Positions 13,695 through 42,407 of a stretch of DNA of 64,000 bases are shown here, piece after piece (within the stretch, counting starts at the first letter, position 1; each line of letters begins with the position of its first letter). The notes beneath the pieces were generated by a model. That model ran no database searches. It saw only the letters and a program-made list of their open reading frames with translations, and had not been told where the DNA came from. This DNA comes from Natronosalvus caseinilyticus (lineage in GTDB: Archaea; Halobacteriota; Halobacteria; Halobacteriales; Natrialbaceae). The translations under genes were made by a program, and so were the position numbers. Location: the NCBI RefSeq assembly GCF_017357105.1, contig NZ_CP071596.1:2294001-2358000 (forward strand), written 5' to 3'.

Positions 13695-15752
13695 CTACTG
13701 GCCGGTCAGATTCCCAGTCACGAACTTGTCTTCGTCACTCGCGCTCCCGTGGAATGACACGTCGCCACAGACGTTGTTCTGGATCCACAGACCCTCGACC
13801 TCCGCCTCCAGTTCGTTGGCGAAGTCGATGTCTGTGTTGGCACCGCCGACGGTGTTACAGGCCGTCACCCACAGGTTGGAGACGGTGCCGTCGGCACCGT
13901 GGTGGCCGATGGGAGGCGCGTCTGCCTTCGCGTCGACGTCGACGACGCGGACGTCGGAGACGTCGCCGCTCGTGGCGACGGACCGGCCGCTCCCGTGCAG
14001 CGTACCGGTCACCGATACGTTCCGTGAGCGTTCGATCGTCACGTCGCTGGCGGCGGTATCGTTGTTCAGGACGTCGACCTCGAGGGTCACGTTCTCGGCG
14101 TCTCCGACGTAGACCACGTCGTCCGTGAAGCTTCCTGAGACATCCCCGGAAACGGAGACGTTCTCCGCTCCGGCGAGATTGAGGGCAACGTCGTCGTTCC
14201 CGCCGCGACCGACGATGGAGACAGATTCGAACTTCGAGTTTCGAAGATTGCCGTTTACGACGTTCGCGCCAGTCCCGGCAAACGTCTCGAGTTCGCATCC
14301 CTCGAGTGTGAGGTTCGATGCCTGGCCGTACGGGGTATTGACGGCGGCGGGGCGACCGACGACGGTCGTTCCGAACGCCTTCACGTGACTCTGGTTGGGC
14401 GACAGCGAGAGTCCGTATCCGGCGTGGTACTTGTCGTGGAGTATCTCCTCGGCGCCTTCGATCCGGCCGCCGTAGACCTCGTAGGCGCCGTAGACCTGCT
14501 GCGTGGCGTTCGAGTGAAAGCAGATGCCGTGGAGGTACGCGTTCCTGATCCGCGGGTCGAAGATTCTGACCACGTTCGACCCGGCGTTGATGTCGATCCC
14601 GCGCCGGCAGGTGTCGATCGACGGGCGCACGACCGTCGGGTCCGTACTGCCGCGAAATTGGAAGGGTTCCCAGTGGGAAGACGCTCGACCCTCAGGGAGG
14701 ACCGGTTTCGTCGCCTCGCAGTCGACCATCACCGTTCGGAGCGAGTGGATGTCGACGAACGGGAACCCGACGTAGTTCTCGGCAGTGCAGTTGATGAACT
14801 TGCAGTCGCGTGCGTAGGCGCTCATCAGGAAGCCCTCGGTCTCGTCCTCGCCGCCGCCGTCGGTCAGGTGCATGTCGACGAACCGGCCACCGACGACCGA
14901 GTCCAGCAGGAACACGCCGGCGTTACCCGCGCCGTGGTCGTAGTTCAGGCCGCGGTCGAGATAGAGCGTCGACCCGTCGATTTCGCGGATGACGGCCCTC
15001 GTTGGGCAGGTGCCACGCCCGGCGGTGCCGCCCCAGGAAAGCGTCGGCGAGTTGTTGTACTTCGACTCCGAGATCGTGACGTCGTCGCCGACGCTGAACG
15101 GCGAGACGTCCTCGACTTCGATCCGCTGATCGCCTTCGCTGACGTCAGTCGCGTTGACCGTATCGCCGCCGAAGTCGCTGACGGCAGTCCAGTTACCGAA
15201 CGAGATGAAGTGCGCGTACGCCCCGTACCCGACGCCGGTGACCCGCAGTTTCGATCCCGTGCCGAGAACCGTCACGTAGTCCTCGAAGATCTCGTGTTCG
15301 CCGTCGAACCAGTACTCCCCGTCGGTCATCACCAGGGTGTCGCCGTCGCTCAGATCGTCGATCGCCGCGTCGAGTGCGTCGTCCGACGGTTCCTCACCCG
15401 TCGGATCTGCACCGTAGTCGTCGATGTCGATCACGTCAACCAGTGTACTGTCGGCGTTCAACACGCCCTCGTCGACGCTGAGGTTCTGCCCGGCAAAATC
15501 CGAGATCCGTTCTGACGTCGCCGCCATCTCGAGTCCGCCCAGAGCGAGCAAATCGTGGCCATCGGCGTTTACGTCGCCTTCCCAGCGGGTCCACGGCTGT
15601 TTGCTTCGCTCCTGCGCACCGACCTGGCCACTCACCAATCCGAGGCCGGCCAACCCCAGTGCGCTCATCGCCGCTCGTCGACTCAATGTACTGCCAACCG
15701 TGCCGTCACGGTCGGATACGTCTGTCTCTCCCCGTTCGCTAGCATCAGTCAT
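13695..15752 (-). CDS. Tat-exported right-handed beta-helix protein (large member)
   Basis: A 685-aa extracellular protein. An acidic leader precedes the Tat motif SRRAAMSALGLAGLGLVSG (RR at 25-26). Next comes the module WTRWEGDVNADGHDLLALGGLEMAATSERISDFAGQNLSVDEGVL, which is shared with the two proteins at 32.9 and 34.9 kb. From about residue 100 (IDIDDYGADPTGEEPSDDALDAAI, the usual opening of pectate-lyase-3-like helices) the rest is a parallel beta-helix with many short Asn/Asp/Ser-rich coils. Such proteins are polysaccharide lyases, hydrolases or adhesins, and no catalytic set is assignable. ATG 15752 is preferred because it starts the typical Asp/Ser-rich leader and an AT-rich promoter-like stretch (15780-15802) lies just upstream. 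Confidence 0.85.
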   Translation of the reverse strand: MTDASERGETDVSDRDGTVGSTLSRRAAMSALGLAGLGLVSGQVGAQERSKQPWTRWEGDVNADGHDLLALGGLEMAATSERISDFAGQNLSVDEGVLNADSTLVDVIDIDDYGADPTGEEPSDDALDAAIDDLSDGDTLVMTDGEYWFDGEHEIFEDYVTVLGTGSKLRVTGVGYGAYAHFISFGNWTAVSDFGGDTVNATDVSEGDQRIEVEDVSPFSVGDDVTISESKYNNSPTLSWGGTAGRGTCPTRAVIREIDGSTLYLDRGLNYDHGAGNAGVFLLDSVVGGRFVDMHLTDGGGEDETEGFLMSAYARDCKFINCTAENYVGFPFVDIHSLRTVMVDCEATKPVLPEGRASSHWEPFQFRGSTDPTVVRPSIDTCRRGIDINAGSNVVRIFDPRIRNAYLHGICFHSNATQQVYGAYEVYGGRIEGAEEILHDKYHAGYGLSLSPNQSHVKAFGTTVVGRPAAVNTPYGQASNLTLEGCELETFAGTGANVVNGNLRNSKFESVSIVGRGGNDDVALNLAGAENVSVSGDVSGSFTDDVVYVGDAENVTLEVDVLNNDTAASDVTIERSRNVSVTGTLHGSGRSVATSGDVSDVRVVDVDAKADAPPIGHHGADGTVSNLWVTACNTVGGANTDIDFANELEAEVEGLWIQNNVCGDVSFHGSASDEDKFVTGNLTGQ

Positions 15753-20241: not shown

Positions 20242-21309
20242 TCAGTGACCGGCGTTTTCGACCTCGACCCACTCGCCGTTCTCCGCGGATTCGTAGGCGG
20301 CGTCGAGAACCCGGAGGACCGCGGCGGCGTCCTGGAGCGTGACCGGCGGGTCGCGCTTGCCGTCGCAGGCCTCGAAGAACGCCTCGACGAACTCCTTGCC
20401 CCACGACCCACCGTAGCCCGGTGCCGGGTCGTACTCGTGGGTGATCGTCCGGTGAGGCGTACACGCCCACTCGCCGCTCGCGTCGTCGAGTTCGAGCGTC
20501 GTCTCCTCGTCGAACCCGAACTCCCGCCCCATCGGATCCCAGCTGCTCCGACCGTGAGTCCCGTAGAGGTCGATTTTCGTGTCGTAGAGGTCCTCGCCGA
20601 GGTAGTAACCGCAGTGGAGCGTCCCGAGCACGCCGTCGGCCGTCTCGAGTTGCAACGTCGCCGCGTCCTCGACCTCGACCGCCGCGGATCCGTCGACCAT
20701 GCACGCGTTGACGCGGGCGATCGGTTCCTCCAGGAGCACGGTGAGTAACTGAAGCCAGTGGATGCCGAGCCACTGGAGGATGCCACCGCGACTCGCGTCC
20801 TCGTCGAAGATGAAGTGGTCGGTGTCCCGGAACGACAGCTGGGAGGCGACGTATCGAACGTCGAACGCTCGCATGTCGCCGAAGAATCCCTCCTCGACGA
20901 GGGCCACGAGTTCCGTCGTGATCGGGTGTGATTGCCAGGGATAGGAGACACAGACGGTCTCGTCGGCTACATCGACGCGCGAGAGTAGCGGCTCGAGTTC
21001 GTGGGCGGTTCGGGCTGCCGGCTTTTCCGTGAAGACGTCGACACCCGCGTCGAGGGCCTGTTCGATCGCTCCGGGAGTGTCCCTGTTCGGGAGCGTCAGG
21101 AAGATCGCGTCCGGCGATTCCGAACTCAGTAACTGCTCGAGATCGTCGTATACGGGAACGTCGTCGAGGGGGGCAATGGTGGACGCGTCGAAGTCCGGAT
21201 CCGGTTCACAGGCGCACGTAACGCTCGCGGGGAGCGTCTCGAGCGTCTCGAGGTACGGTTCCGCGTGATGGTGGTCGAGGCCGGCGTAGCCGATCGTTCG
21301 ATCGGTCAC
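20242..21309 (-). CDS. Gfo/Idh/MocA-family protein with a missing catalytic Asp
   Basis: A 355-aa protein. The N-terminal Rossmann domain begins IGYAGLDHHHAEPYLETL, without a normal GxGxxG, and continues to AGVDVFTEKPAARTAHELEPLL with the family EKP motif. In the C-terminal domain the usual GG...D.G.H..D active-site segment reads GGILQWLGIHWLQLL, so Asp is replaced by Trp while His is kept. Redox activity may be altered. The GTG start at 21309 follows a GGAGG ribosome-binding site and overlaps the stop of a 52-codon upstream frame by four bases. The aminotransferase gene follows about 210 bp downstream on the same strand. Confidence 0.85.
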   Translation of the reverse strand: MTDRTIGYAGLDHHHAEPYLETLETLPASVTCACEPDPDFDASTIAPLDDVPVYDDLEQLLSSESPDAIFLTLPNRDTPGAIEQALDAGVDVFTEKPAARTAHELEPLLSRVDVADETVCVSYPWQSHPITTELVALVEEGFFGDMRAFDVRYVASQLSFRDTDHFIFDEDASRGGILQWLGIHWLQLLTVLLEEPIARVNACMVDGSAAVEVEDAATLQLETADGVLGTLHCGYYLGEDLYDTKIDLYGTHGRSSWDPMGREFGFDEETTLELDDASGEWACTPHRTITHEYDPAPGYGGSWGKEFVEAFFEACDGKRDPPVTLQDAAAVLRVLDAAYESAENGEWVEVENAGH

Positions 21310-26543: not shown

Positions 26544-27506
26544 ATGAGAGCTTGTATCGCGGGGGCGGGATTCATGGCTCGAACCCACGCGGCGGAGTAC
26601 GCCCAGATGGACGTCGAGATCGTCGGTGTCGCCTCGCCGAGCGGCCCCGACGAGTTCGTCGCGGAGTTCGGCTTCGAGGCTGAGACTTTCACGGACGTCG
26701 CGACGATGCTCGAGGAGACGAACCCCGATTACGTCGACATCTGTACCCCGACACACACCCACGTGGAACTGGTTCGGACGGCCGCCGCCGCCGGCGTCGA
26801 CGTCTTCCTCGAGAAACCGATCGCCAGCACCCTCTCGGAGGCACACGAGATCGACGAGATCGTCGCCGACGCCGAGTTGACGTTCATGCTCGGCCACGTC
26901 GCCCGCTTCTTCCCGAACTACCGACACGCTCGCGACCTCGAGGTCGGAAACGAGGGCGTCGCTCGCGCTCGGCGACTCTCGCCGTTCCCGGACTGGGGCT
27001 CTGATAACTGGTTCGCCGACCGCGAGAAGAGCGGCGGCATCTTCGTCGACCTGGCGATCCACGATCTCGACTACCTCCGGTGGTGCTGGGGCGACGTCGA
27101 GCGGGTGTTCGCCCGCCGCCACCGCGACGACGAGTCCGAACACGGGTTCGTCACCCTTCGCTTCGAGAACGGTGCCGTCGGCTACGTCGAGTCCTCGTGG
27201 GCCCAACCCGACTCGCGGCCGTTTACCGTCGAGCTCGAATTCGCTGGCGACGACGGCCTGGTCGAGTTCTCGAGTGCCGAGGAGTCAGCCTACGCCGAGT
27301 GGACCGACGGCGACGTGACCGTCGAGAGCCCGCTCGCGAAGAACGGCTATCGGCGGGAACTCGAGCACTTCGTCTCCTGTCTCGACGACGGTTCGGACCC
27401 CGAGGTCGGCGCTTCGGAGGGGATCGAAGCGCTTCGTCTCGCGCTCGCCGCCGAGCGCTCGGCCGACCGCGGTGTCCCCGTCGCACCCGAGGAGGTGGCG
27501 AAATGA
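26544..27506 (+). CDS. Gfo/Idh/MocA oxidoreductase, pair A first member
   Basis: A 320-aa NAD(P)-dependent oxidoreductase. The Rossmann loop is CIAGAGFMARTHAAEYA (canonical GxGxxA), followed by ASPSGPDEFVAEF, CTPTHTHVELV and VDVFLEKPIASTLSE with the EKP motif. The C-terminal catalytic segment SGGIFVDLAIHDLDYLRW keeps both Asp and His. The protein ends VAPEEVAK, and its stop overlaps the ATG of the next gene in ATGA. It is closely similar in motifs, length and ending to the product encoded at 31.6-32.6 kb on the other strand. Substrates are probably sugars or sugar acids. Confidence 0.92.
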   Translation: MRACIAGAGFMARTHAAEYAQMDVEIVGVASPSGPDEFVAEFGFEAETFTDVATMLEETNPDYVDICTPTHTHVELVRTAAAAGVDVFLEKPIASTLSEAHEIDEIVADAELTFMLGHVARFFPNYRHARDLEVGNEGVARARRLSPFPDWGSDNWFADREKSGGIFVDLAIHDLDYLRWCWGDVERVFARRHRDDESEHGFVTLRFENGAVGYVESSWAQPDSRPFTVELEFAGDDGLVEFSSAEESAYAEWTDGDVTVESPLAKNGYRRELEHFVSCLDDGSDPEVGASEGIEALRLALAAERSADRGVPVAPEEVAK

Positions 27507-28501
27507 GCGACCCCATCGCGATGGGTATCCTGTCGACCGCTCACGTCCACACGGACGCTTACGCCGGTGAACTCGCCGACCGCGAGGACGTCGACTTCGT
27601 CGGCGTTACGGACGGGGATTCAGACCGCGGCCAGGAAACGGCCGAACGCCATGGCACCGAGTACGTCGCCGACGCCGACGCACTCCTCGAGCAGATCGAC
27701 GCCGCGGTGATCTGTGCACCAAACGCCGCCCACCGCGAGTGGTTCGAGCGGGCGGCCGCCACCGGCGTCCACGTCCTCTGTGAGAAGCCGCTCGCACCGA
27801 CTCTCGAGGACGCACGGGTGATCGTCGACGTCTGGCAAGAGTCGGGTATCCGCGCCGGTATCACCATGCCGCTTCGGTTCTGCGGCCCGGCCCAGCGGGC
27901 GAAGGAGACCCTCGACGCCGGCGAGGTCGGTGACCTCCTCGCCATCTCCGGAACGAACCGCGGGCAGATGCCCGGGGGCTGGTTCGTCGATCCCGAAGCC
28001 GCTGGCGGCGGTGCCGTGATGGACCACTCGGTTCACATCGTCGACCTCGTCTATCACCTCACGGGCCAGGCAGTCGCAGAGGTGTACGCCGAGGTCGACA
28101 CGCGGTTTCACGACATCCCGGTCGACGACGTCAACGTCCTCTCGATGGAGCTGGCGGACGGAACGCCGTTCTTCCTCGACGGGTCGTGGAGCAAGCCTGA
28201 CGCCTGGCACACGTGGGGCGACGCGACCCTCGAACTGACCGGCACCGACGCCACGGTCGGCCTCGACTACACAGATCAATCGCTCGTCCACACCGTCGAG
28301 TCCGGTTCGGACGCGGGCGTTCACACGGCGTTCTACGGCACGAACGCGAACGCGGGCCTCATCGAGGACTTCGTGAGCAGCGTTCGGGCAGATCGAGAGC
28401 CGGAGATTACCCCGGACGAGGGCCTGCTGGCCGTCGCTGTCGTCGAAGCGGCCTACGAATCAGCCGAGACGGGCGAGCCGATCGAGGTCGCGTTCGACTG
28501 A
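27503..28501 (+). CDS. Gfo/Idh/MocA oxidoreductase, pair A second member (STAHVH subgroup)
   Basis: A 332-aa protein. Instead of GxGxxG the first loop reads MGILSTAHVHTDAYAGEL, a variant found in a distinct Gfo/Idh subgroup with His-rich loops. CAPNAAHREWFERA and GVHVLCEKPLAPTLED follow, and the catalytic segment GGGAVMDHSVHIVDLVYH retains Asp and His. The ATG overlaps the upstream stop (ATGA) and is preceded by GGAGGTG, so the two proteins are likely made in equal amounts. The homologue on the opposite strand is at 30.6-31.6 kb. A common two-component enzyme or two sequential steps are both possible. Confidence 0.92.
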   Translation: MSDPIAMGILSTAHVHTDAYAGELADREDVDFVGVTDGDSDRGQETAERHGTEYVADADALLEQIDAAVICAPNAAHREWFERAAATGVHVLCEKPLAPTLEDARVIVDVWQESGIRAGITMPLRFCGPAQRAKETLDAGEVGDLLAISGTNRGQMPGGWFVDPEAAGGGAVMDHSVHIVDLVYHLTGQAVAEVYAEVDTRFHDIPVDDVNVLSMELADGTPFFLDGSWSKPDAWHTWGDATLELTGTDATVGLDYTDQSLVHTVESGSDAGVHTAFYGTNANAGLIEDFVSSVRADREPEITPDEGLLAVAVVEAAYESAETGEPIEVAFD

Positions 28502-28567
28502 CCCCCGAATCCGTCGCGGGATTCAGGTAATCCCCGATCTCGAGGCCGTGATTCTGCCCGTCCTCCG

Positions 28568-29398
28568 TCACGCGCTCGGTGGGCCGTCCCACTCTTCCCC
28601 GTTGTCTCGAGGCGCGTACTTGAGCACCTCGCGGGCGTGGTCGATGTCGAACCAGCGTCGATCGTTGTCGCTGACGCCGTAGAAGACGTCGAATTCGACG
28701 TGGTCGTCCTGGAGCATTCGATCGATCATGTGCCCGCAGTCCCGGCGGGAGAACCACGTTGCCTTGAGGCGGGCGACCTGTCGATCGTACGCCTCGCTGT
28801 CGCGTTCCCAGCGTCCGTCGTCGACGCCACGCTCCGCTGAGGCGTAGGGGTGGTCCTCCCCGGCCGGCCTGACGCTAGCTATCCGAAGCGCGTAACACCG
28901 CTTCGGGTACGTCTTCGTCTCGACGAAAAACCGCGCGTCGTGCTCGCCGAAGAGCTTCGAAACGCCGTAGGTCGAGTCCGGGCGAACGGGAGACCGGTGA
29001 TCGACGGTAAGGTCGAATTCGGGTTCGTAGAGGTCCGGTGAGAACTCCCGCTCGTACAGTCCGACGACGTGGTTCGTCGAGCCGAAGATCACCGATTCGA
29101 CCTCGGCGTCGGCTGCCGCCCGGAGGACGTTTCTCGTCCCGCGGACGTTGACTCGGAGGATGTCCTCCCAGGACTCGTCGACGAATCCGGGTGCGTAGAC
29201 GGCCATGTGAACGACGGCATCGATGCCGTCGAAGGCGGGTCGAATCTGCTCGTAGTCGGCGACGTCCGCGACGACGGTCTCCCGATTCGGATGCGACTCG
29301 ATGTCGAGTTCCGTGAACGAATACTCGTCGCGATCGCCGAGTGCCTCGACGATCGCGGTCCCGACGATTCCGTTCGCCCCGGTGATCAGCACGTCCAT
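28568..29398 (-). CDS. NAD-dependent epimerase/dehydratase (uronate dehydrogenase- or GalE-like)
   Basis: A 276-aa extended SDR protein. MDVLITGANGIVGTAIVEAL is the GxxGxxG cofactor loop, VVADVADYEQI follows the second strand, VIFGSTNHVVGLYE holds the catalytic Ser/Thr region and STYGVSKLFGEHDARFF the YxxxK pair. CYALRIASVRPAG and the short C-terminus resemble uronate dehydrogenases and small UDP-sugar-independent epimerases. A uronate-oxidising role would suit the locus, but remains inference. The start at 29398 has a GTTATATTG box 21-29 nt upstream. It is the last gene of a run of four genes transcribed leftwards from 32.6 kb. Confidence 0.85.
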   Translation of the reverse strand: MDVLITGANGIVGTAIVEALGDRDEYSFTELDIESHPNRETVVADVADYEQIRPAFDGIDAVVHMAVYAPGFVDESWEDILRVNVRGTRNVLRAAADAEVESVIFGSTNHVVGLYEREFSPDLYEPEFDLTVDHRSPVRPDSTYGVSKLFGEHDARFFVETKTYPKRCYALRIASVRPAGEDHPYASAERGVDDGRWERDSEAYDRQVARLKATWFSRRDCGHMIDRMLQDDHVEFDVFYGVSDNDRRWFDIDHAREVLKYAPRDNGEEWDGPPSA

Positions 29399-29418
29399 GG
29401 TCGCCAATGTACGAGCGT

Positions 29419-29427
29419 CAATATAAC
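29419..29427 (-). promoter_or_regulatory. TATA-like box of the epimerase gene
   Basis: GTTATATTG on the reverse strand is centred about 25 nt before the ATG at 29398, giving this gene its own leaderless promoter inside the leftward gene run. Confidence 0.45.
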
Positions 29428-29586
29428 GGTGAGGCTTCGGTATCGCGTTCCCCATTCTTCTCGTGTTCCCTGTTCTGGTTCACCGTTCCTCGGTCAAGCA
29501 CTCGCAAGAAATCGCCATCGGGGCGTTTTCCGACCGCTAGTCGAGTCACCGCCCGTTCGAAGAGGAAGCGCCTGCGGACGGTTCGA

Positions 29587-30591
29587 TCACTCGGTGAGAC
29601 GCACCGCCCGACCGCTCTCGCTGGACCGGTAGATCGCGTCGATCACGCGCTGGACGACGAGCGCTTCCTCGACCGTCTCCGCAGGCGGCTCGCGGGTGCC
29701 GGCGACGGCCTCGAGGAACGCCCGATCCTCCGCGAGGTGCATGTCGTTGGCCTCGACGGCGAGGGTATCGACGTCGGCGTCGGCATCGGCGCTCACGAAC
29801 GCGAGATCGGACTCGCTCACCTTGAACGACGCGCCTCCCTCGCTCCCTCGCACGACGCACGACCGCGAGGGGGCGGCCGTGCCGTGCCAGGACGTTTCGA
29901 CGGAAATCGTCTGTCCGTCGGCACACCGGAGCAAGGCGGTCGCGGAGTCGTCGACGTCGTACTCGCCGAACTCGGAGCGCGCCCGTCCGCTCACCTCGAC
30001 GACGGTCGGGTAGTCGAGCAGGTACAGCGCGAGGTCGATGATGTGAACGCCCAGATCCATCAACACGCCGCCACCGGCCAGCCCCTCGTCGGTGAACCAG
30101 CCCCGACCGCCGCCGGGAACGCCGCCCCGCCGGAGGTAATCGACACTCACGTGCGAGAGCGAGCCGAACGATCCCTCGTCCCGAAGCTCGATCGCTCGTT
30201 GCGTCAGGCTCGAGAACCGCATCGTGAACCCGACCGTACAGAACCCGTCGGCCGCTCGGGCGGCCGCTGCGATCCGTTCGGCGCTCTCGACGGAGTGCGC
30301 CAGTGGCTTCTCGAGGAGGACATCTACGCCCGCCTCGAGCGCATCGACGGCGATCTCCTCGTGGATGCGGTTTGGAACGCCGACGATCACCGCGTCAACG
30401 CCGGACTCGAGCAGTTCGTGGTGATCGCGGTAGGCCGGGGCGTCGAATTCGTCCGTGAACGACGCTCGCGCGTCCTCGTCTAGGTCCGCGCCGACGAGTT
30501 CGGCGCCGAGGTCGTCGATTCGCGTCGCGTGAATTCGCCCGATGGTTCCCAGTCCGACGATGCCGACGCGGACTGACCTGTCTTCAGTCAT
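29587..30591 (-). CDS. Gfo/Idh/MocA oxidoreductase (canonical)
   Basis: A 334-aa oxidoreductase with every family motif intact: GIVGLGTIGRIHATRI, VGVPNRIHEEIA, GVDVLLEKPLAHSVES and the catalytic GGGVLMDLGVHIIDLALYLL. It ends in the usual short helix (YRSSESGRAVRL). It lies between the epimerase gene and cassette B but does not belong to the duplicated pair. ATG 30591 is about 27 nt from a TTTTTATACC box, so this is the preferred start; another in-frame ATG lies four codons upstream at 30603. The reaction is NAD(P)-linked oxidation of a sugar, sugar acid or cyclitol, not further specified. Confidence 0.92.
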   Translation of the reverse strand: MTEDRSVRVGIVGLGTIGRIHATRIDDLGAELVGADLDEDARASFTDEFDAPAYRDHHELLESGVDAVIVGVPNRIHEEIAVDALEAGVDVLLEKPLAHSVESAERIAAAARAADGFCTVGFTMRFSSLTQRAIELRDEGSFGSLSHVSVDYLRRGGVPGGGRGWFTDEGLAGGGVLMDLGVHIIDLALYLLDYPTVVEVSGRARSEFGEYDVDDSATALLRCADGQTISVETSWHGTAAPSRSCVVRGSEGGASFKVSESDLAFVSADADADVDTLAVEANDMHLAEDRAFLEAVAGTREPPAETVEEALVVQRVIDAIYRSSESGRAVRLTE

Positions 30592-30612
30592 CGTCGAATC
30601 CATCACGCGGCC

Positions 30613-30623
30613 GGTATAAAAAT
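30613..30623 (-). promoter_or_regulatory. TATA-like box of the canonical oxidoreductase gene
   Basis: ATTTTTATACC on the reverse strand, about 27 nt upstream of the ATG at 30591. It is located in the 50-bp gap after cassette B. Confidence 0.5.
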
Positions 30624-30641
30624 GTGCCCGCTCGGTCCGCG

Positions 30642-31637
30642 TCAGTCTCGGTACTCGATTGCCACTGGCTCGCCGCGCTCGTCTGACTCGTAGGCTGCGA
30701 GCACGACCGCGGTTTCGCGAAGTCCGTCCTCGGCGGTGACTAGGGGCGGTCGATCGTTCTCCACCGCGTCGACGAAGTCCTGAAGCAACCCGTCGTCCGG
30801 GATCGAACCCCAGTAGACGCCGTCGATGCCTTCGCCCTCGCGGGTGCGCTTGAGCGTCTGGTCGAAGACGTCGATCGCGAGTTCGCCGTCGGTGCCGATC
30901 AGGTTCAGCGTCGCATCGCCCCAGTAGTCCCAGTCGTCGGGCCGGTCCCAGGATCCGTCGAGGGTGAAGATGCTCCCGTCCGAGAGCGCCATCGAGAGCA
31001 CGTTGATGTCCTCGACTTCGACGCCGTCGTGCATCGTCGAAAACTCCGCGTTGACCTCGACGACCTCCTCGCCGGTGATCCAGCGCACGAGGTCGACGAT
31101 GTGGACGGTGTGGTCCATCGCCGCGCCGCCGCCAGCGTGTTTGGGACTGGCCGACCACCCCGTCAGGTGGCGGTCGCGCAGCCACGCTCGGTTCGTGCCG
31201 ACCGCGACCCGAAGGTCACCGATCTCGCCCGCTTCGTAGGCTTCCTTCGCCCGCTTCGCGGGAACGCTGAACGGCAATGGCATACAGACGCCCAGGCGGA
31301 CGCCCGCGTCGTCGCAGGCGTCGACGACTGCGCGCGCGTCCTCGAGAGTCGTCGCGAGGGGCTTCTCACAGAGGACGTGGACGCCGGCGGCGGCCGCCCG
31401 TTCGACCCACTGACGCCGGGTCACGTTCGTCGAACAGACGATGGCCGCGTCCACCGACGAGAGCAACGCTGCAGGCTCGAGGAACTCGACGTCGAATCGA
31501 CCCGCCGCCTCGCGACCGCGTTCGACGTCGTCGTCGGTCACCCCGACGAACTCGACGTCCGCCCGGGCGTTCAGTCGAGACCCGAATCCGTTCGTGTGGA
31601 CGTGCGCGGTCGACAGGATACCCATACGGAGCGTCAT
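30642..31637 (-). CDS. Gfo/Idh/MocA oxidoreductase, pair B second member (STAHVH subgroup)
   Basis: A 331-aa homologue of the protein at 27.5-28.5 kb. It has the same non-canonical loop MGILSTAHVHTNGFGSRL, the same VHVLCEKPLATTLED, and a catalytic segment GGGAAMDHTVHIVDLVRW with Asp and His. Its ATG at 31637 overlaps the preceding stop (ATGA) and is preceded by GAGGTGA. The protein ends SDERGEPVAIEYRD, matching SAETGEPIEVAFD of the pair A homologue. It is presumably produced together with its canonical partner encoded upstream. Confidence 0.92.
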   Translation of the reverse strand: MTLRMGILSTAHVHTNGFGSRLNARADVEFVGVTDDDVERGREAAGRFDVEFLEPAALLSSVDAAIVCSTNVTRRQWVERAAAAGVHVLCEKPLATTLEDARAVVDACDDAGVRLGVCMPLPFSVPAKRAKEAYEAGEIGDLRVAVGTNRAWLRDRHLTGWSASPKHAGGGAAMDHTVHIVDLVRWITGEEVVEVNAEFSTMHDGVEVEDINVLSMALSDGSIFTLDGSWDRPDDWDYWGDATLNLIGTDGELAIDVFDQTLKRTREGEGIDGVYWGSIPDDGLLQDFVDAVENDRPPLVTAEDGLRETAVVLAAYESDERGEPVAIEYRD

Positions 31638-32626
31638 GCCGTCACCTCGTCGGGCGCGACGCGCCGTCCAGTGTTGGCAGACTCGATCGCCGCGAGCGCG
31701 ATTCGGAGCGCTTCCAGTCCATCGCGGCCCGTAATCGGCGGCTCCGAACCCGAGCGCACGCAGTCGACGAACGCCTCTAGCTCGAGTCGATAGGGGTCCT
31801 TCTCGAGCGGTTCGTCGATCGGATCCCGCTGCGGTTCACCGGCGTCGGTCGTGCTGTAGACGTCGATCGGCGACACTTCCTCGCTGTCGTACTCGAGCAG
31901 GCCCTCGTCGCCGGAGAGCTCGAATCGGGTGACGAACGGGAGGTCGGGCCGATTGGGCCAGCGTGCGTCGACGTGACCGACCGCGCCGCTTTCGAAGCGG
32001 AGCGTGGCGAGTGCGTACTCGTGGTCGTCCCACTGCTTGCGTCGAGCGAAGACGCGTTCGACCGGGCCGAGTGTCCACCGGAGGAAGTCGAAGTCGTGGA
32101 TCGCCAGATCCAGGAGGACCCCGCCGCTCTTCTCGTCGTCCACGAACCAGTCGTTCTTCTCCGCGAACGGAGACTGGCGGAACAGACGGGCGTTTCCAGG
32201 GGTGCCGATGTCGCCTTCCTGGATCCGCTCTCGTGCTTTCGCGTACTCGGGGAAGAACCGGAGCGTGTGGCCCGGCATGAACGTCACGCCCGCCTCGCCG
32301 GCCGCGTCCACCATCGCCGTCGCGTCGGCTATCGTTCGCTCGAGTGGCTTCTCACAGAGGACGTCCAGGCCGCGGTCGACCGCAGGGACGACCAGCTCAC
32401 GGTGGGTGTGCGTCGGCGTGCAGACGTCGATCGCGTCGAGGGATTCCGCGTCGTACATCTCGACGGCGTCGTCGTAGGGTGTCGCGCCGTCGGTGTACTC
32501 GACGACGAACTCGTTCGGGCCGCTCGGCGACGCGACGGCCACGACGTCGACTCCATCCAGCTCGGCGTACCGCAGCGCATGGACCGTCGCCATGAAGCCG
32601 CGGCCCAGAATTCCGATCCGTACCAT
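31634..32626 (-). CDS. Gfo/Idh/MocA oxidoreductase, pair B first member
   Basis: A 330-aa homologue of the protein at 26.5-27.5 kb, sharing the loop GILGRGFMATVHALRYA, the phrase VAVASPSGPNEFVVEY, CTPTHTHRELV, LDVLCEKPLERTIAD, and the catalytic segment SGGVLLDLAIHDFDFLRW. The C-terminus VAPDEVTA parallels VAPEEVAK of the pair A protein, showing that even the gene junction is conserved. ATG 32626 is the chosen start; a GTG lies one codon before it. A reverse-strand TACTTATCG near 32653-32661 is a likely promoter. It heads a leftward run of four genes. Confidence 0.92.
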   Translation of the reverse strand: MVRIGILGRGFMATVHALRYAELDGVDVVAVASPSGPNEFVVEYTDGATPYDDAVEMYDAESLDAIDVCTPTHTHRELVVPAVDRGLDVLCEKPLERTIADATAMVDAAGEAGVTFMPGHTLRFFPEYAKARERIQEGDIGTPGNARLFRQSPFAEKNDWFVDDEKSGGVLLDLAIHDFDFLRWTLGPVERVFARRKQWDDHEYALATLRFESGAVGHVDARWPNRPDLPFVTRFELSGDEGLLEYDSEEVSPIDVYSTTDAGEPQRDPIDEPLEKDPYRLELEAFVDCVRSGSEPPITGRDGLEALRIALAAIESANTGRRVAPDEVTA

Positions 32627-32886: not shown

Positions 32887-34503
32887 ATGGCTACCAATAG
32901 ACAAGATAGCGACTCGTTGGAGTCGACCGACTCGACAGGCGAAACGGCGGATCGAGTACCAGCGGGCGAGCGAGACGACGGAACAGTCACTCGACGGGCG
33001 GCGATGGCGCTGGCGGGCGTCACCGGTGCGGGTCTGCTAGGTGGCGCTGTCGGGCAGGTCGGTGCTACCAGCAACCCGCGACCTCGTCGGTGGGAACAGG
33101 ACGTCGATGCACAGGGACACACCCTGAGCGATCTCGGCGCCCTCGAGATGGCCGGGTCCGAACCCATCACCGACTTCGCAGGTGAGGATCTCTCCATCGA
33201 GGATGGCGTATTGAGTATTGCAGGTGACAGTGATCTGGTCAACAACGTCCGCTACGTCGACGTCACGGAAGGGGCCACGGCCGTCCAAGAGGCCGTCGAC
33301 GATGCCGATGCCGAGGGCCACAACAAAGTCGTCGTCTACGGCGACGAGGGCGAGTGGAATAGGACGGTGCACTTACCGAGCGAGTTCACCCTCGAGATCC
33401 TCGACGGCGTCACTATCACGTCCACGATGGACGCAAGCGACGCAGAAACGTTCGAAGTCGGCGACGGCACTACGGCTGCTGCCCTGATCACGAACGCGGA
33501 CCACGAGAACGGCAACGACAACGTCGTCGTCCGTGGCGGGCACGTCGACTTCTCCGGCGCGTCCACCGGGGGAGCAGTCTGGGCACCCGTCTGGTTACAC
33601 GACTGTGAGGACAGTCTGTTCGACTCGATCCGAGTCGAGAACGCGTCCGGCAGAGGCGGGGTGATGTTTTCTGACTGTCGGAACTCAATGATGATCGATT
33701 GCACCGCCCGGAACATCGGTTACGACGGGATTGCCCTCACTCTCGACTGTCGAGGGTGTGACGTCGTCCGGTGTAAGGCATCCGAGTGTGGTGGCCCCGG
33801 TATACAAGCGGCGACGTTTGGCCGGGGAGCCGGCGCTCCCCGAGGCATCACGTTCACTAACTGTCGCACCGACGAGATGATCGCCGTCCACGGCTACGAG
33901 GTCGCGGGCGGTGCGAGGAACATCGCCATTCAGGGGTGTACTGCTCGTCGGCTTGGAATCATCGGCGAGGTCAGAGACTTCCGGATCTCGGACTGCGACG
34001 TCGACGCAGTCGCCCTCTCGGCACTGGACGAAACGATCAGAAACGGTCGGATCGACTCCGTGACGATGGGCGAACGCGTCGTCGACCCGTTTTCACAGGC
34101 GGCGACGATCCTCTGGGCGTGGGAAGGACTCATCGAGAACGTTAGCTTCAGTAACTGCACTGCCCACACTGACGGCCACATCGAGCGGTTCGTCGAAACC
34201 CGATTGCTGTCCGAAGAGGCGACGGCCCGGTACGTCGACTACACGAACTGTGCGTTCGATAGCGACGGAGCGGAGGTCTCGCAATTCGTTCAACACACGC
34301 CCGATGGAGAGGCCGGTTACCAAGAATCTGTCGGCGAACTCTCGAACGTCCGCATTCAGAACTGCAAGATCTGGAACGTCGACTACGCCATCGAAGGTGC
34401 TGTCGACGGCCTTCGAGTCCGCGGCACGGAACTCCACGAGGTCGGCGATCTCCACGATGGCGACGTTACGGATCTGGAAACCCACCAGAACGACTGGTGG
34501 TGA
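32887..34503 (+). CDS. Tat-exported right-handed beta-helix protein, tandem copy 1
   Basis: A 538-aa secreted protein. A Ser/Asp/Glu-rich leader precedes VTRRAAMALAGVTGAGLLGG (RR at 36-37). The module RRWEQDVDAQGHTLSDLGALEMAGSEPITDFAGEDLSIEDGVL follows, then a parallel beta-helix whose coils repeat a hydrophobic-x-Asn/Asp/Gly-Cys pattern (FSDCRNS, FTNCRTD, IQGCTAR, ISDCDVD, FSNCTAH, YTNCAFD, IQNCKIW). The protein ends TDLETHQNDWW. Polysaccharide lyase, sugar-binding or cell-surface roles are possible. The neighbouring gene at 34.9 kb is a close paralogue, nearly identical in DNA over the shared module. Confidence 0.87.
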   Translation: MATNRQDSDSLESTDSTGETADRVPAGERDDGTVTRRAAMALAGVTGAGLLGGAVGQVGATSNPRPRRWEQDVDAQGHTLSDLGALEMAGSEPITDFAGEDLSIEDGVLSIAGDSDLVNNVRYVDVTEGATAVQEAVDDADAEGHNKVVVYGDEGEWNRTVHLPSEFTLEILDGVTITSTMDASDAETFEVGDGTTAAALITNADHENGNDNVVVRGGHVDFSGASTGGAVWAPVWLHDCEDSLFDSIRVENASGRGGVMFSDCRNSMMIDCTARNIGYDGIALTLDCRGCDVVRCKASECGGPGIQAATFGRGAGAPRGITFTNCRTDEMIAVHGYEVAGGARNIAIQGCTARRLGIIGEVRDFRISDCDVDAVALSALDETIRNGRIDSVTMGERVVDPFSQAATILWAWEGLIENVSFSNCTAHTDGHIERFVETRLLSEEATARYVDYTNCAFDSDGAEVSQFVQHTPDGEAGYQESVGELSNVRIQNCKIWNVDYAIEGAVDGLRVRGTELHEVGDLHDGDVTDLETHQNDWW

Positions 34504-34926
34504 CGACATCGCGGACGGGACGACTACCGAACGCCGCGAAATCGGAATTCGATCCGAACCGGATCGAGTCGTAGCGGCCACCGATATAGGTACTGACTCG
34601 AGTCGACCGGTACTGCTCGTTCGACGGCGTAACGGCCAGTACCGGCACGTCCTCGCTATCGCATCACAGGACGAAACACACGTCGCTATCCGTGAGGTCC
34701 GGTGTAGCTGTGCTTCATGGCCGACTGAAGTAACTGCTATACGTTCCATCACGCGAAGCCTAGCGAGATTGAGAGCGGAATGCAAACATTGTGATCACCA
34801 GTGGGGATTGCACGTATGCAAAGATGATATTCATCCACTCATTCGTATATTTATAACTTCTCCTTCCAGACTTATTGTCCTGGTTATCATACTTTATAAA
34901 TGCTATGAGTGTTGGTGACCGTGGGT
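34504..34926. other. Intergenic region between tandem beta-helix genes
   Basis: No gene is seen. The last about 130 bp are AT-rich and contain the TTTATAA box at 34893. Confidence 0.45.
34893..34899 (+). promoter_or_regulatory. TATA box of beta-helix gene 2 of the tandem pair
   Basis: TTTATAA begins 34 nt before the ATG at 34927, the same element and spacing as in copy 1, indicating that the promoter was duplicated along with the gene. Confidence 0.6.
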
Positions 34927-36558
34927 ATGGTTATCACTACTCGAGACAGCGACTCGGAGGAGTCTATCGACTCCGATTCGACACGATCGGCCGAGGAATC
35001 GAGAGATGCGACCGAGACGACGACGGACTCTTCTGGCGAAACGACGGTCACCCGGCGAGCGGCGATGGCGGTAGCAGGGGCCACCGGCGCGGGTCTTCTG
35101 GCCGGGGTCGGAACCGCTGGCGGCACCGACGCCTCTCAATCACGTCGGTGGAAGCAGGACGTCGATGCACAGGGACATACCCTGAACGACCTCGGCGCCC
35201 TCGAGATGGCCGGGTCCGAACCTATCACCGACTTCGCAGGCGAGGACCTCTCCATCGAGAGCGGTGTGTTGCGTGCAACGAACGACAGGGACCTGCTCAA
35301 CAACGTCCGCTACGTCGACGTCGCGGAGGGAGCCGATGCGGTCCAGGAGGCCGTCGACACGGCCGACACCGATGGTCACAACAAGGTCGTCGTCTACGGC
35401 GACGAGGGCGAGTGGAATCGAACGGTCTACCTCCCCAGCGAGTTCACCCTCGAGATTCTCGACGGCGTCACCATCACGTCCACGATGGACGAAAGCGACA
35501 CGGAGGTGTTCCACGGAGGTGCCGCACTCATCACGAACGACGATCACGAGAACGGCAACCACGACATCACGGTCCGCGGTGGGCATATCGACTTCGAGGG
35601 TGTCGATTCCGACCAGGACGGCATCCGCTGGGGCCCGGTCTGGCTCCACACCGTCGACAACGCGCTGTTCGACTCGATCACCGTCGAGAACGTCGACTGG
35701 CGCTACGGCATCGTCTTCACCGACTGCACGCGCTCGAAGATCGTCGACTGCCTCGCTCGCAACACTGGCTACGACGGTATCACCCTCCGCGGGACCTGCG
35801 AACACGTCGACGTCGTCCGCTGTTCGACCTACGACAACGTGAACGGGCCGGGCATCCAGGCGGCCCCGAGCATCGGCGAGGGCGGAACCGGCGGCCACCA
35901 CCTCACCTTCACCGACTGTCGAATGGACGAACACCTGGCGATCCACGGCGTGCGCGGCGGCATCACGGACGTCGCCATACAGGGCTGTTCGGTCCGCCGA
36001 ATCGGTATCATCCAGGAGGTCGACGGGTTCCGAATCTCCGACTGTGACGTCGACACCATCGCGTTCTCGGCGTTCACCGGCGAAATCCGAAACGGCCGCG
36101 TCGACTCCTGTACGATGGCACCCCGATACGCCGACCACGACGCCCAGATTCCGGCGGCGGTCGTCCTCTGGACGTGGGCGAACGACCTCATCGAAAACGT
36201 CAGTTTCAGCAACTGCACCGCGCGAGACCTCGACAAATTCGTCGAGTGTCGGATTCTCGACGAGACGTCCGTCGTCCGCCACATCGACTTCAGCAACTGC
36301 GCGTTCGACGTGGGTGACGGCGACGAACCGAGGGCGTTCATCGAGCACACTCGCGACGACGACTGGGTGGTCGACTCCGTAGGCGAACTCTCGAACGTTC
36401 GAATCCACGGCTGTAAGATCTGGAACACGGACTCGGTCATCCAGGGTGAGGTTGACGGCGTTCGGATACGACTGACGGAGTTCCACGGCGTGGACGAGGA
36501 CGCCCTCGACGACGGTGATCTCACGGACCTGGAAACGCACCAGAACGACTGGTGGTGA
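34927..36558 (+). CDS. Tat-exported right-handed beta-helix protein, tandem copy 2
   Basis: A 543-aa paralogue of the preceding protein. The leader is again acidic (DSDSEESIDSDST), the Tat motif is VTRRAAMAVAGATGAGLLAG (RR at 43-44), and the module RRWKQDVDAQGHTLNDLGALEMAGSEPITDFAGEDLSIESGVL is almost unchanged. The helix coils carry the same Cys pattern (FTDCTRS, FTDCRMD, IQGCSVR, ISDCDVD, FSNCTAR, FSNCAFD, IHGCKIW), and the end TDLETHQNDWW is identical. The middle coils are more divergent than the two ends, suggesting selection for a different ligand. The start is set by the conserved TATA spacing. Confidence 0.87.
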   Translation: MVITTRDSDSEESIDSDSTRSAEESRDATETTTDSSGETTVTRRAAMAVAGATGAGLLAGVGTAGGTDASQSRRWKQDVDAQGHTLNDLGALEMAGSEPITDFAGEDLSIESGVLRATNDRDLLNNVRYVDVAEGADAVQEAVDTADTDGHNKVVVYGDEGEWNRTVYLPSEFTLEILDGVTITSTMDESDTEVFHGGAALITNDDHENGNHDITVRGGHIDFEGVDSDQDGIRWGPVWLHTVDNALFDSITVENVDWRYGIVFTDCTRSKIVDCLARNTGYDGITLRGTCEHVDVVRCSTYDNVNGPGIQAAPSIGEGGTGGHHLTFTDCRMDEHLAIHGVRGGITDVAIQGCSVRRIGIIQEVDGFRISDCDVDTIAFSAFTGEIRNGRVDSCTMAPRYADHDAQIPAAVVLWTWANDLIENVSFSNCTARDLDKFVECRILDETSVVRHIDFSNCAFDVGDGDEPRAFIEHTRDDDWVVDSVGELSNVRIHGCKIWNTDSVIQGEVDGVRIRLTEFHGVDEDALDDGDLTDLETHQNDWW

Positions 36559-39857: not shown

Positions 39858-42407
39858 CTACGGGAGGTCCTCGGCGACCCAGTCGAAGACCGTCTCTCGA
39901 CGGGCCCGTGGCGGCGGATTGCTGTGGCCGGCCGCACGGAGCCGGGCCTCGTGATAGTCGAAGCTGTTGATGTCGTAGGGCGTACGTAGCTCGAGTGCGT
40001 CGACGGCCCCGTACAGGTCGTACACGGCTCGCGCCTCCTCCACGCATCGGACGACGTCCTCTTGAGGGTGATCCCAGTCGAGTTCCGGTGCCCACGCCAA
40101 CAGCGGTCGAGGGGCGACGAGACCCAGGACCTCGTGGAAGTCGAACGGCATTCTGTTGGGCTCGTCTCGGAACAGCCCGAGTCGCGGGTGGTGGCCGTGG
40201 ATGTGGGAGTGGCGACCGATCACTGCGTTGGCCCGCTCTTTCTCCGGATCGCTCAGTCGGAACGGGGAGAACCCGCAGACCGAGGCGACGCCCCGGATCC
40301 GTTCGTCGAGAGCGGCTGTGTACAACCCGACGGTGGCGCCCAGCGAGTAGCCGACGAGGTAGATCTGATCCGAGTCGATCGAGTCGTGTTCGATCAACCG
40401 GTCGACGACGACCTGCGTATCCGCTACCATCTTCCCCATCGTTGACCAGTCCGGGTATCGATCGTAGAAGTCCTGGCCGTCAATCGTCCGCGTCCCGAAT
40501 CCGATCTGATCTAACGAAGCGAACGCGAAGCCGCGATCGGTCGCGAACTCGAGTGGTTCTCGGAACCCTCCGCCCGTCCCGTACCCGCCACCGTAGGAGT
40601 AGGGGTGGAGCCAGACGATCGCGGGCAGTTCCTTCTCGGCGAACGTATTGGCATCCGTCTCACTCGCGTCGTCATCTTCTTCCGCCTGGCTCCGCGGATA
40701 GAAGAGGTCGCTCTGGACGTGCGGACCGTCGACGTCGGATGGCGACTGTTCCACTTTGCCGATGGTGTCCGTCTCGTCGGGTCGACCGACGACCGCTCCG
40801 TCTCGCGGCGGTTGGTCGCCGAAACTCCACCGGATCGTCTCGCGAAGGGCGGGCTTCTTCGCCTCCCAGTCCACCGTCGTCGTGATCGTCGTTCCGTTCT
40901 CGTCGACGAGCAAATCGTCGATTCCCCGCTCGGGGAACGATTCGAGATCGATTCCCGCCGCGGACGTCTTCGACCACTCGTCGAACGAGAACTCGTGGTT
41001 GAACCGCGATGGATTCACGTAGTCGTCGACGGTCTGGTCGTCTTCTTCCCGATCGAACGCGTAGTCGAAGAAGTCGACGATCGCTTCGACGTCGGCGAGT
41101 GGCATTTCGTGACCGGTCTGGCGGTAATGGACCGCGAGGGCGTCTTCGGCGTCGTAGAGTTCGTAAACGGGGAGTGCAGATTTGTACACTCGTTCTATGG
41201 CCCACGCGTTGGAGTTGAGGTCCTTCATCGAGACGTCGATCATGCACGCTCGCGGGGCGACCATCGACACGAGCGAGTTCGCGTCGACCGGGAGACGATT
41301 TTCCCGCCCGATGAAGAATCGCCAGCGCGGATGGAACCAGCTTCGTCGGACGCAGGCGTGGTAGCCCATGTGCCCCGAGAAGTAGTTATCTCGATCGAAC
41401 CGGGCTGGCAGGGCGCCGCCGGTTCCGGATCCGGCGGGCGCGACCGCGCTTATCCGATCGTCAAACGCGGCCGCGATCAGCGCCTGTTTTCCGTTTCGAG
41501 AGAAGCCCGTGAGTCCGATTCGATCCTCGTCGACGTCCTCGAGCGTGAGGAGATAATCGACGACTCGCTGGGCTCCCCACGCCCGACGCGCCAGAACCTG
41601 AAAGTCGTGGTCCGGATAGTGCGCTCCGTAATCGCCAGTGTCGTCCCTCGCGTCGGCGCCCGCGTAGACGACGCCGATGTAGCCGCGTTCGAGCGCACGG
41701 TATGCCCACTCGCGGTGGTTCCACTGCGTCATGAATACCGGGAACGGCCCTTCCCTCTCCTCCGGTACCATGACCTGGACGGTCATCGTCGCCTCGTCGT
41801 CGGGGCCGAACTCCAGACGGACCCCCTGTTGGGTCGCCGTCCCGTCGGCCACGGTCAGCGTGCGGAGCTCGGTCACCTGCATGTCGTCCGGAGCAGGAGG
41901 CATGCTCCCGTAGAACCAGTGTTGAATCGCATCGCCGATGCGCTCGCGCTGGCGTTCCCAGCCGTCGATGGTGTCGATCAGGTCAGCGTATCCGCCTTCG
42001 CCTCGACGAAGTGGGTCGGGAAGACCAGCAGTCGCGGGAAGCCGTTCGTAGTCCGGCGGCAATTCCCCGGTATCGTCGAGCCACGCCCGCCAGTTAGGAT
42101 GTTCCCTCGAGAGTCGTGGATCGGAGATTGGATCGTCATCGGCGTCGAGGTGGAGGAGCGGAATCAGCTTCTCCAGGTATTCTCGACGGCGTTCCCGCCC
42201 GCCCTCGCTATCTTCTTCTCCATACCAGTCGGCAGTCGTGTCGTCGAGATCGGCGGTCGGGTCGTCCCGTTGGGTATCGAGTGCGAGTTTCGTCGCCCCG
42301 AGTCCGAGTACCCCGGCCGCGGCACTGACCACGAACCCCCGACGTCCAATAGGCCACCGTGAGCCATTTTTCTCCGCTCGTTGCTCGTCGTGCTGATCGC
42401 TATCCAT
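39858..42407 (-). CDS. Tat-exported double alpha/beta hydrolase: CE15-like glucuronoyl esterase plus dienelactone hydrolase-like domain
   Basis: An 849-aa secreted protein. The leader contains GRRGFVVSAAAGVLGLG (RR at 22-23). Domain 1 (about 170-460) has the CE15-type nucleophile motif GFSRNGK (Ser about 303), the GSGTGG loop, RLPVDANSLVSMVAPR and TGHEM (His about 433), closely following glucuronoyl methylesterases. Domain 2 (about 500-849) has a second nucleophile elbow GYSLGA (Ser about 688), IVWLHPYSYGGGYG as oxyanion strand and LVAPRPLLAW, as in acetyl-xylan esterase and dienelactone hydrolase relatives. It would remove methyl or acyl esters from uronic acids outside the cell. The ATG is set by a CTATAACTC box about 27 nt upstream; a GTG lies two codons earlier. 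Confidence 0.85.
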   Translation of the reverse strand: MDSDQHDEQRAEKNGSRWPIGRRGFVVSAAAGVLGLGATKLALDTQRDDPTADLDDTTADWYGEEDSEGGRERRREYLEKLIPLLHLDADDDPISDPRLSREHPNWRAWLDDTGELPPDYERLPATAGLPDPLRRGEGGYADLIDTIDGWERQRERIGDAIQHWFYGSMPPAPDDMQVTELRTLTVADGTATQQGVRLEFGPDDEATMTVQVMVPEEREGPFPVFMTQWNHREWAYRALERGYIGVVYAGADARDDTGDYGAHYPDHDFQVLARRAWGAQRVVDYLLTLEDVDEDRIGLTGFSRNGKQALIAAAFDDRISAVAPAGSGTGGALPARFDRDNYFSGHMGYHACVRRSWFHPRWRFFIGRENRLPVDANSLVSMVAPRACMIDVSMKDLNSNAWAIERVYKSALPVYELYDAEDALAVHYRQTGHEMPLADVEAIVDFFDYAFDREEDDQTVDDYVNPSRFNHEFSFDEWSKTSAAGIDLESFPERGIDDLLVDENGTTITTTVDWEAKKPALRETIRWSFGDQPPRDGAVVGRPDETDTIGKVEQSPSDVDGPHVQSDLFYPRSQAEEDDDASETDANTFAEKELPAIVWLHPYSYGGGYGTGGGFREPLEFATDRGFAFASLDQIGFGTRTIDGQDFYDRYPDWSTMGKMVADTQVVVDRLIEHDSIDSDQIYLVGYSLGATVGLYTAALDERIRGVASVCGFSPFRLSDPEKERANAVIGRHSHIHGHHPRLGLFRDEPNRMPFDFHEVLGLVAPRPLLAWAPELDWDHPQEDVVRCVEEARAVYDLYGAVDALELRTPYDINSFDYHEARLRAAGHSNPPPRARRETVFDWVAEDLP

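Follow-up and report, generated by a model that had tools for sequence, protein, structure and literature searches.

Two inverted pairs of coupled, paralogous Gfo/Idh/MocA genes in a haloarchaeal genome probably encode heteromeric oxidoreductases

The window analysed here is the whole stretch of 64,000 nucleotides (bases 2,294,001-2,358,000) of a haloarchaeal host genome of 4.24 Mb. It carries two pairs of genes for Gfo/Idh/MocA proteins in inverted orientation, and we refer to the first members (P0001 and P0003) as A and to the second members (P0002 and P0004) as B. The features of the locus are:

26544..27506, + strand: putative A subunit, copy 1; GAGFMA loop, EKP Lys91, Asp169, His173; clade A
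27491..27497, + strand: Shine-Dalgarno-like GGAGGTG within the final A1 codons, 5 bases before the B1 start
27503..28501, + strand: putative B subunit, copy 1; GILSTAHVHT loop, EKP Lys95, Asp174, His178; overlaps A1 by ATGA; clade B
29587..30603, - strand: third Gfo/Idh/MocA gene, family f15; 38 bp 3' of B2
30642..31637, - strand: putative B subunit, copy 2; GILSTAHVHT; loop NRAWLRDRHLTGWSAS in place of NRGQMPGGWFVD
31634..32626, - strand: putative A subunit, copy 2; GRGFMA loop, EKP Lys93, Asp173, His177; clade A
31643..31648, - strand: Shine-Dalgarno-like GAGGTG within the final A2 codons

All four proteins are full-length and two-domain (PF01408 and PF02894/PF22725 above the Pfam cut-off). 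The A proteins are 48% identical to each other and the B proteins 54%. The host genome has 21 Gfo/Idh/MocA places, seven of them inside the window. Within this genome the best match of each A is the other A (634-672 bits; next family gene 116) and that of each B is the other B (670 bits; next family gene 101). The domain matches and mutual best matches confirm the four open reading frames and the two matching, inverted pairs described in the first-pass annotation. Its picture of a two-gene cassette holds for the pair, which is present twice, but it overlooked the third Gfo/Idh/MocA gene beside the reverse pair. No such f15-type gene is present at the forward copy, and genes of this family accompany an A-B pair in eight haloarchaeal loci, the window counted. 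Curated cut-offs ruled out that A or B is an inositol, UDP-GlcNAc or xylose dehydrogenase; on the myo-inositol 2-dehydrogenase model TIGR04380, for instance, A and B scored 107-186 bits, below the equivalog cut-off of 355.

Several other genes of the window were recorded. A Gfo/Idh/MocA protein encoded at 20242-21309 (- strand) has the loop variant GLDHHHAEPY and adjoins a DegT aminotransferase; its family, f13, also occurs near A-B pairs in other genomes. Tandem paralogous right-handed beta-helix proteins with twin-arginine-like signal sequences are encoded at 33004-34503 and 34909-36558 (+ strand), with a third relative at 13695-15668. An 850-aa protein (39858-42407, - strand) combines a glucuronyl-esterase-like domain with a second alpha/beta-hydrolase domain, and around it lie two amidases, a ceramidase-like protein and an oligopeptide-type ABC transporter.

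The variant loop of B, singled out in the first pass, was confirmed: B has S-T-A-H in place of the glycine positions of GxGxxA. Among full-length haloarchaeal sequences, the glycine-rich dinucleotide loop was found in 38 of 41 A proteins, the remaining three being cut by start choice, and in none of 47 B proteins. The Lys of EKP, the Asp and the His are invariant in both groups (41/41 A and 47/47 B). B is a divergent Gfo/Idh/MocA member, without the glycine loop but passing the domain test. In an AlphaFold model of B (pLDDT 88) the strand-loop-helix at the variant loop is kept and the Rossmann domain is complete, and the model superposes on the NADH-bound levoglucosan dehydrogenase 6a3g with a Z score of 40.2 and an rmsd of 1.9 Å over 326 residues. 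We make no claim that B is unable to bind NAD, because the modelled Rossmann domain is complete and superposes on an NADH-bound structure. A complex in which B binds no NAD and acts only as a regulatory or substrate-binding subunit fits the missing glycine motif of every haloarchaeal B; we consider this narrower form of a heteromer somewhat unlikely, since the catalytic residues are invariant in B and the model has a normal Rossmann domain.

At both pairs, stop and start codons overlap in ATGA and GAGGTG lies in the final A codons, 5 bases before the B start, so the junction reported in the first-pass annotation is indeed conserved. We surveyed 391 genomes of the class, analysing 20-kb regions around matches in which genes were called by a hexamer model trained on these loci and then clustered, with neighbours listed. 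In the 36 directly adjacent A-B pairs of the haloarchaeal loci, A always came first and the overlap was exactly 4 bases in 33. GGAGG, GAGGT or AGGTG preceded B at all 36 A-B junctions and at all eight junctions with a degenerate A, family f16 (see below); the same motif set occurred at 23 of 41 other 4-base overlaps in these loci (Fisher p ~1e-6 for the A-B junctions). Translation of B would be coupled to that of A through the overlap and the Shine-Dalgarno-like motif at the end of A, giving matched amounts. Long open frames were rejected as A-B fusion proteins, since with an overlap of 4 bases A and B are read in different frames.

Of the 391 genomes, 34 contain B and 33 contain A, and the scores of both stand well clear of those of other family members. 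Among 48 B genes, one of them broken across two contigs, 36 follow A and eight follow f16; one, with the same overlap, comes after a different Gfo protein (L099). B without an adjacent Gfo-type partner, the case that would speak against the strict coupling proposed in the first pass, is rare (3 of 48), and the genomes concerned still have A elsewhere. A and B are separated by 8-36 kb in two genomes (G378 and G105). A literature search turned up no paper on such Gfo pairs in haloarchaea.

Bacterial relatives were sought in 72,556 plasmid records, with at least 33% identity for B and E up to 1e-25 for A. A relative of B was present in 22 records, 21 of which also had a relative of A, the exception being Mesobacillus; no A without B was found among the 72,556 records at E up to 1e-25. 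In all five records of Deinococcus plasmids, sugar ABC permeases are followed by A and then by an overlapping B. The Deinococcus A proteins scored 248-267 bits on the A profile and 96-110 on the B profile, the B proteins 244-285 bits on B and 106-169 on A, and the B loops include LLSFAHVHA and LLGAAHVHA. The intact Mesobacillus B (358 bits) lies directly after a 244-aa open reading frame (L105:6267-7001). This frame gave a weak hhalign match to A (E 0.004, probability 8%, A columns 149-273), which is weakly suggestive of a remnant A; it gave nothing to B in hhalign and no Pfam match above cut-off. Matches in Paenibacillus, Vescimonas and Priestia were rejected as B on account of weaker similarity and a canonical loop; those of Vescimonas and Priestia also fall outside clade B.

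The haloarchaeal and plasmid linkage rules out that B is a generic Gfo member occurring freely without A. It also bears on the idea that an old tandem duplication simply left A and B as neighbouring paralogues, with chance and hitchhiking behind their linkage. Haloarchaeal genomes hold many Gfo/Idh/MocA genes, as the 21 places here illustrate, and 4-base overlaps are common in operons, but pairing across two domains of life, in almost every carrier and with fixed order and junction motif, makes this explanation highly improbable. Taken by itself, the linkage is compatible with a single enzyme as well as with two.

In a tree of 144 sequences the first members fell into one clade and the second members into another (support 91 for A and 99 for B), in agreement with the sister relationships expected from the first-pass annotation; f16 joined A with support 92. 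The window pairs sit in two different subclades, for A and B alike. The closest relatives of copy 1 are in same-genus genomes (G277 and G250, 94-95%), those of copy 2 in Halovivax (85-88%). A recent local inverted duplication of one cassette was ruled out, as the copies belong to separate old subclades. Two genomes of another family (G194 and G215) also have one pair per subclade, inverted and with shared neighbours, indicating that the two-pair island itself is recurrent. The island is thus common to three genomes of two families (L068, L069 and window 26544-32626).

The window B copies also differ in a conserved loop near the active site, beside the GGGA motif (NRGQMPGGWFVD in copy 1 versus NRAWLRDRHLTGWSAS in copy 2), and the longer form was found only in relatives of copy 2 and in the B proteins of L074 (the first) and L099. 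Since the B copies come from different subclades and have different conserved loops adjacent to the active site, it is plausible that the two copies are tuned to different sugars, as the first pass had proposed. Distances among A proteins correlate with those among B proteins (r 0.94 over all sequences and 0.90 for haloarchaea only; maxima after permutation 0.38 and 0.23). Nearest neighbours agree between the A and B trees in only 26 of 40 cases, so the mirror signal is at clade level. The correlation points to inheritance of A and B as a unit and is not proof of contact.

In eight genomes an intact A-B pair faces a further, convergent pair, in which f16 is followed by a B gene (B') with the same 4-base overlap. 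An Orc1/Cdc6 gene is nearby at these loci (L085, L088, L089, L091, L092, L093, L096 and L097). The best match of the f16 profile is A (median 118 bits; next family 47). Aligned to A, f16 has DPP for EKP and Ala or Ser for the catalytic Asp; the glycine loop is lost and the His is kept. Read from its sequence, f16 would be a catalytically dead A. Pairwise dN/dS is 0.21-0.46 for f16 and 0.08-0.15 for A, from which f16 appears to be under purifying selection and not decaying freely. B' keeps Lys, Asp and His beside its dead partner, a further point against a B that is only regulatory or substrate-binding. A moonlighting or binding role of f16 without a complex is conceivable.

A loss on the other side of the pair was found in the antibiotic producers. 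The top match of the A profile among PDB sequences is 8w9s_A (217 bits), and the B profile matches RifT, chain B of the entries headed by 8w9s. Four entries (8w9s, 9vcm, 9vcn and 9vco) contain both sequences, with eight chains of each in all. A rifS-rifT operon has been named (PMC7062684), and the chaxamycin cluster has a cxmS-cxmT pair (PMC4551226). From the names, the operon and the shared entries we infer chain A to be RifS and the two chains to be in complex. The paper behind these structure entries was not found in our literature search.

A comparable pair is present on the Streptomyces sp. CL7 plasmid pSALBX2 (L115:8009-10017), beside tryptophan dimethylallyltransferase and tryptophanase genes, which places a RifS/RifT-like pair in another biosynthetic setting as well. 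It strengthens the connection of A and B with the PDB chains. Its first protein gave 191 bits with the A profile and 113 with the B profile. The second, a RifT homologue, reached 119 bits with the B profile and 73 with the A profile and had no match to the other families tested; its best PDB match is RifT (163 bits), and at E up to 1e-10 it retrieved only records with B-family genes among the 72,556 plasmids. Its loop is LSFAEERA, compared with LSFAHVHA in B. In both RifT and this homologue CEKP is changed to CEYPP, and the catalytic Lys is gone. The match of RifT to the B profile starts no earlier than profile position 61. These two features of RifT favour the version in which B binds no NAD. 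When the Streptomyces homologue was included in a second tree, clade B had a support of 97 and the homologue sat on a long branch. RifT is a distant, long-branch B. The window B proteins keep Lys, Asp and His, so they appear to be relatives of the RifT-type subunit, not the same kind. A fold search with B did not return RifT among the matches listed, which has no bearing either way.

Active-site loss is therefore reciprocal: beside RifT, a dead B, the A is intact, and beside f16, a dead A, it is B' that is intact. The first-pass annotation had left a choice between a two-component enzyme and two obligatory consecutive reactions. The reciprocal dead subunits and the RifS/RifT entries favour the former and weaken the latter, because a dead enzyme cannot perform a consecutive step, yet it is kept coupled to its partner. 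We consider it likely that each pair forms one heteromeric NAD-dependent oxidoreductase of two paralogous Gfo/Idh/MocA subunits.

The alternative is that A and B are two separate homomeric dehydrogenases acting in sequence on one sugar, for example with A oxidizing a hydroxyl to a ketone and B reducing it with opposite stereochemistry, a redox-neutral epimerization. E. coli YcjS/YcjQ and the inositol epimer pathways are precedents for such sequential dehydrogenases. Lys, Asp and His are kept in all 41 A and 47 B proteins, and the Deinococcus operons hold little beyond a sugar ABC transporter, A and B, possibly a self-contained conversion. AP_endonuc_2 genes (TIM-barrel sugar isomerase/epimerase-like) lie near many haloarchaeal pairs, and co-inheritance and coupling would also fit two enzymes of one pathway. 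Against this stand the dead f16, kept under selection beside an intact B', the dead RifT beside an intact A, and the presence of A-type and B-type chains together in PDB entries. We judge sequential enzymes to be quite unlikely.

In the heteromeric enzyme that we prefer, A would contribute the canonical dinucleotide loop, and B the same fold with Lys, Asp, His and an S-x-A-H-x-H loop replacing the glycine motif. Their contact would probably run across the C-terminal sheets, the interface of homomeric relatives. At least one site may act on a hydroxyl group, by oxidation or reduction, in a sugar, sugar acid or cyclitol that the cell imports; the partner subunit may be structural, substrate-binding or a second catalytic site. 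Either site could be lost while the partner stays; both subunits would then matter structurally, with one or two active sites in use. We give even weight for and against a broader proposal, namely that the pairs constitute an obligate heteromeric family across domains. In this family either subunit would independently have become a pseudoenzyme (A in haloarchaea, B in ansamycin producers, perhaps A in Mesobacillus), kept for a joint function such as a shared or cross-subunit active site or cofactor function. In our literature search no paper was found that describes a version with both subunits catalytic, a version with a dead A, the depth across two domains or the coupling signals.

The very large Gfo/Idh/MocA family is regarded as one of single-gene homomeric dehydrogenases. 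If a conserved two-subunit branch exists in haloarchaea, Deinococcus, Bacillota and ansamycin producers, many Gfo/Idh/MocA genes would have to be expressed and assayed as pairs. The reciprocal active-site losses would then serve as natural mutants for the contribution of the second subunit.

Homomeric IolG, TM_0414 (3ezy), levoglucosan dehydrogenase (6a3g) and GFOR share the two-domain fold over its whole length, as well as EKP, Asp and His. In contrast to A and B, they are single-gene enzymes; B is without the glycine motif, and A and B score far below the curated cut-offs. The E. coli YcjS-YcjR-YcjQ pathway for 3-keto-glycosides uses two dehydrogenases on a glycoside, the steps being linked by an epimerase. 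The likeness lies in two dehydrogenases of one pathway; no epimerase/isomerase-like TIM barrel was found beside A-B in the Deinococcus operons or in the scanned genes of the window, but such genes lie near many other haloarchaeal pairs. RifS-RifT is similar in the best PDB match of A, the match of RifT-type proteins to the B profile, which exceeds that to every other family tested, the LSFA-type loop, the single operon and the shared entries. It differs in that RifT is without the catalytic Lys and the first Rossmann part is missing from its alignment, whereas the haloarchaeal B proteins are full-length and retain Lys, Asp and His. The setting also differs, antibiotic biosynthesis in one case and sugar uptake and breakdown in the other. 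The kind of enzyme suggested here already has a precedent in RifS/RifT.
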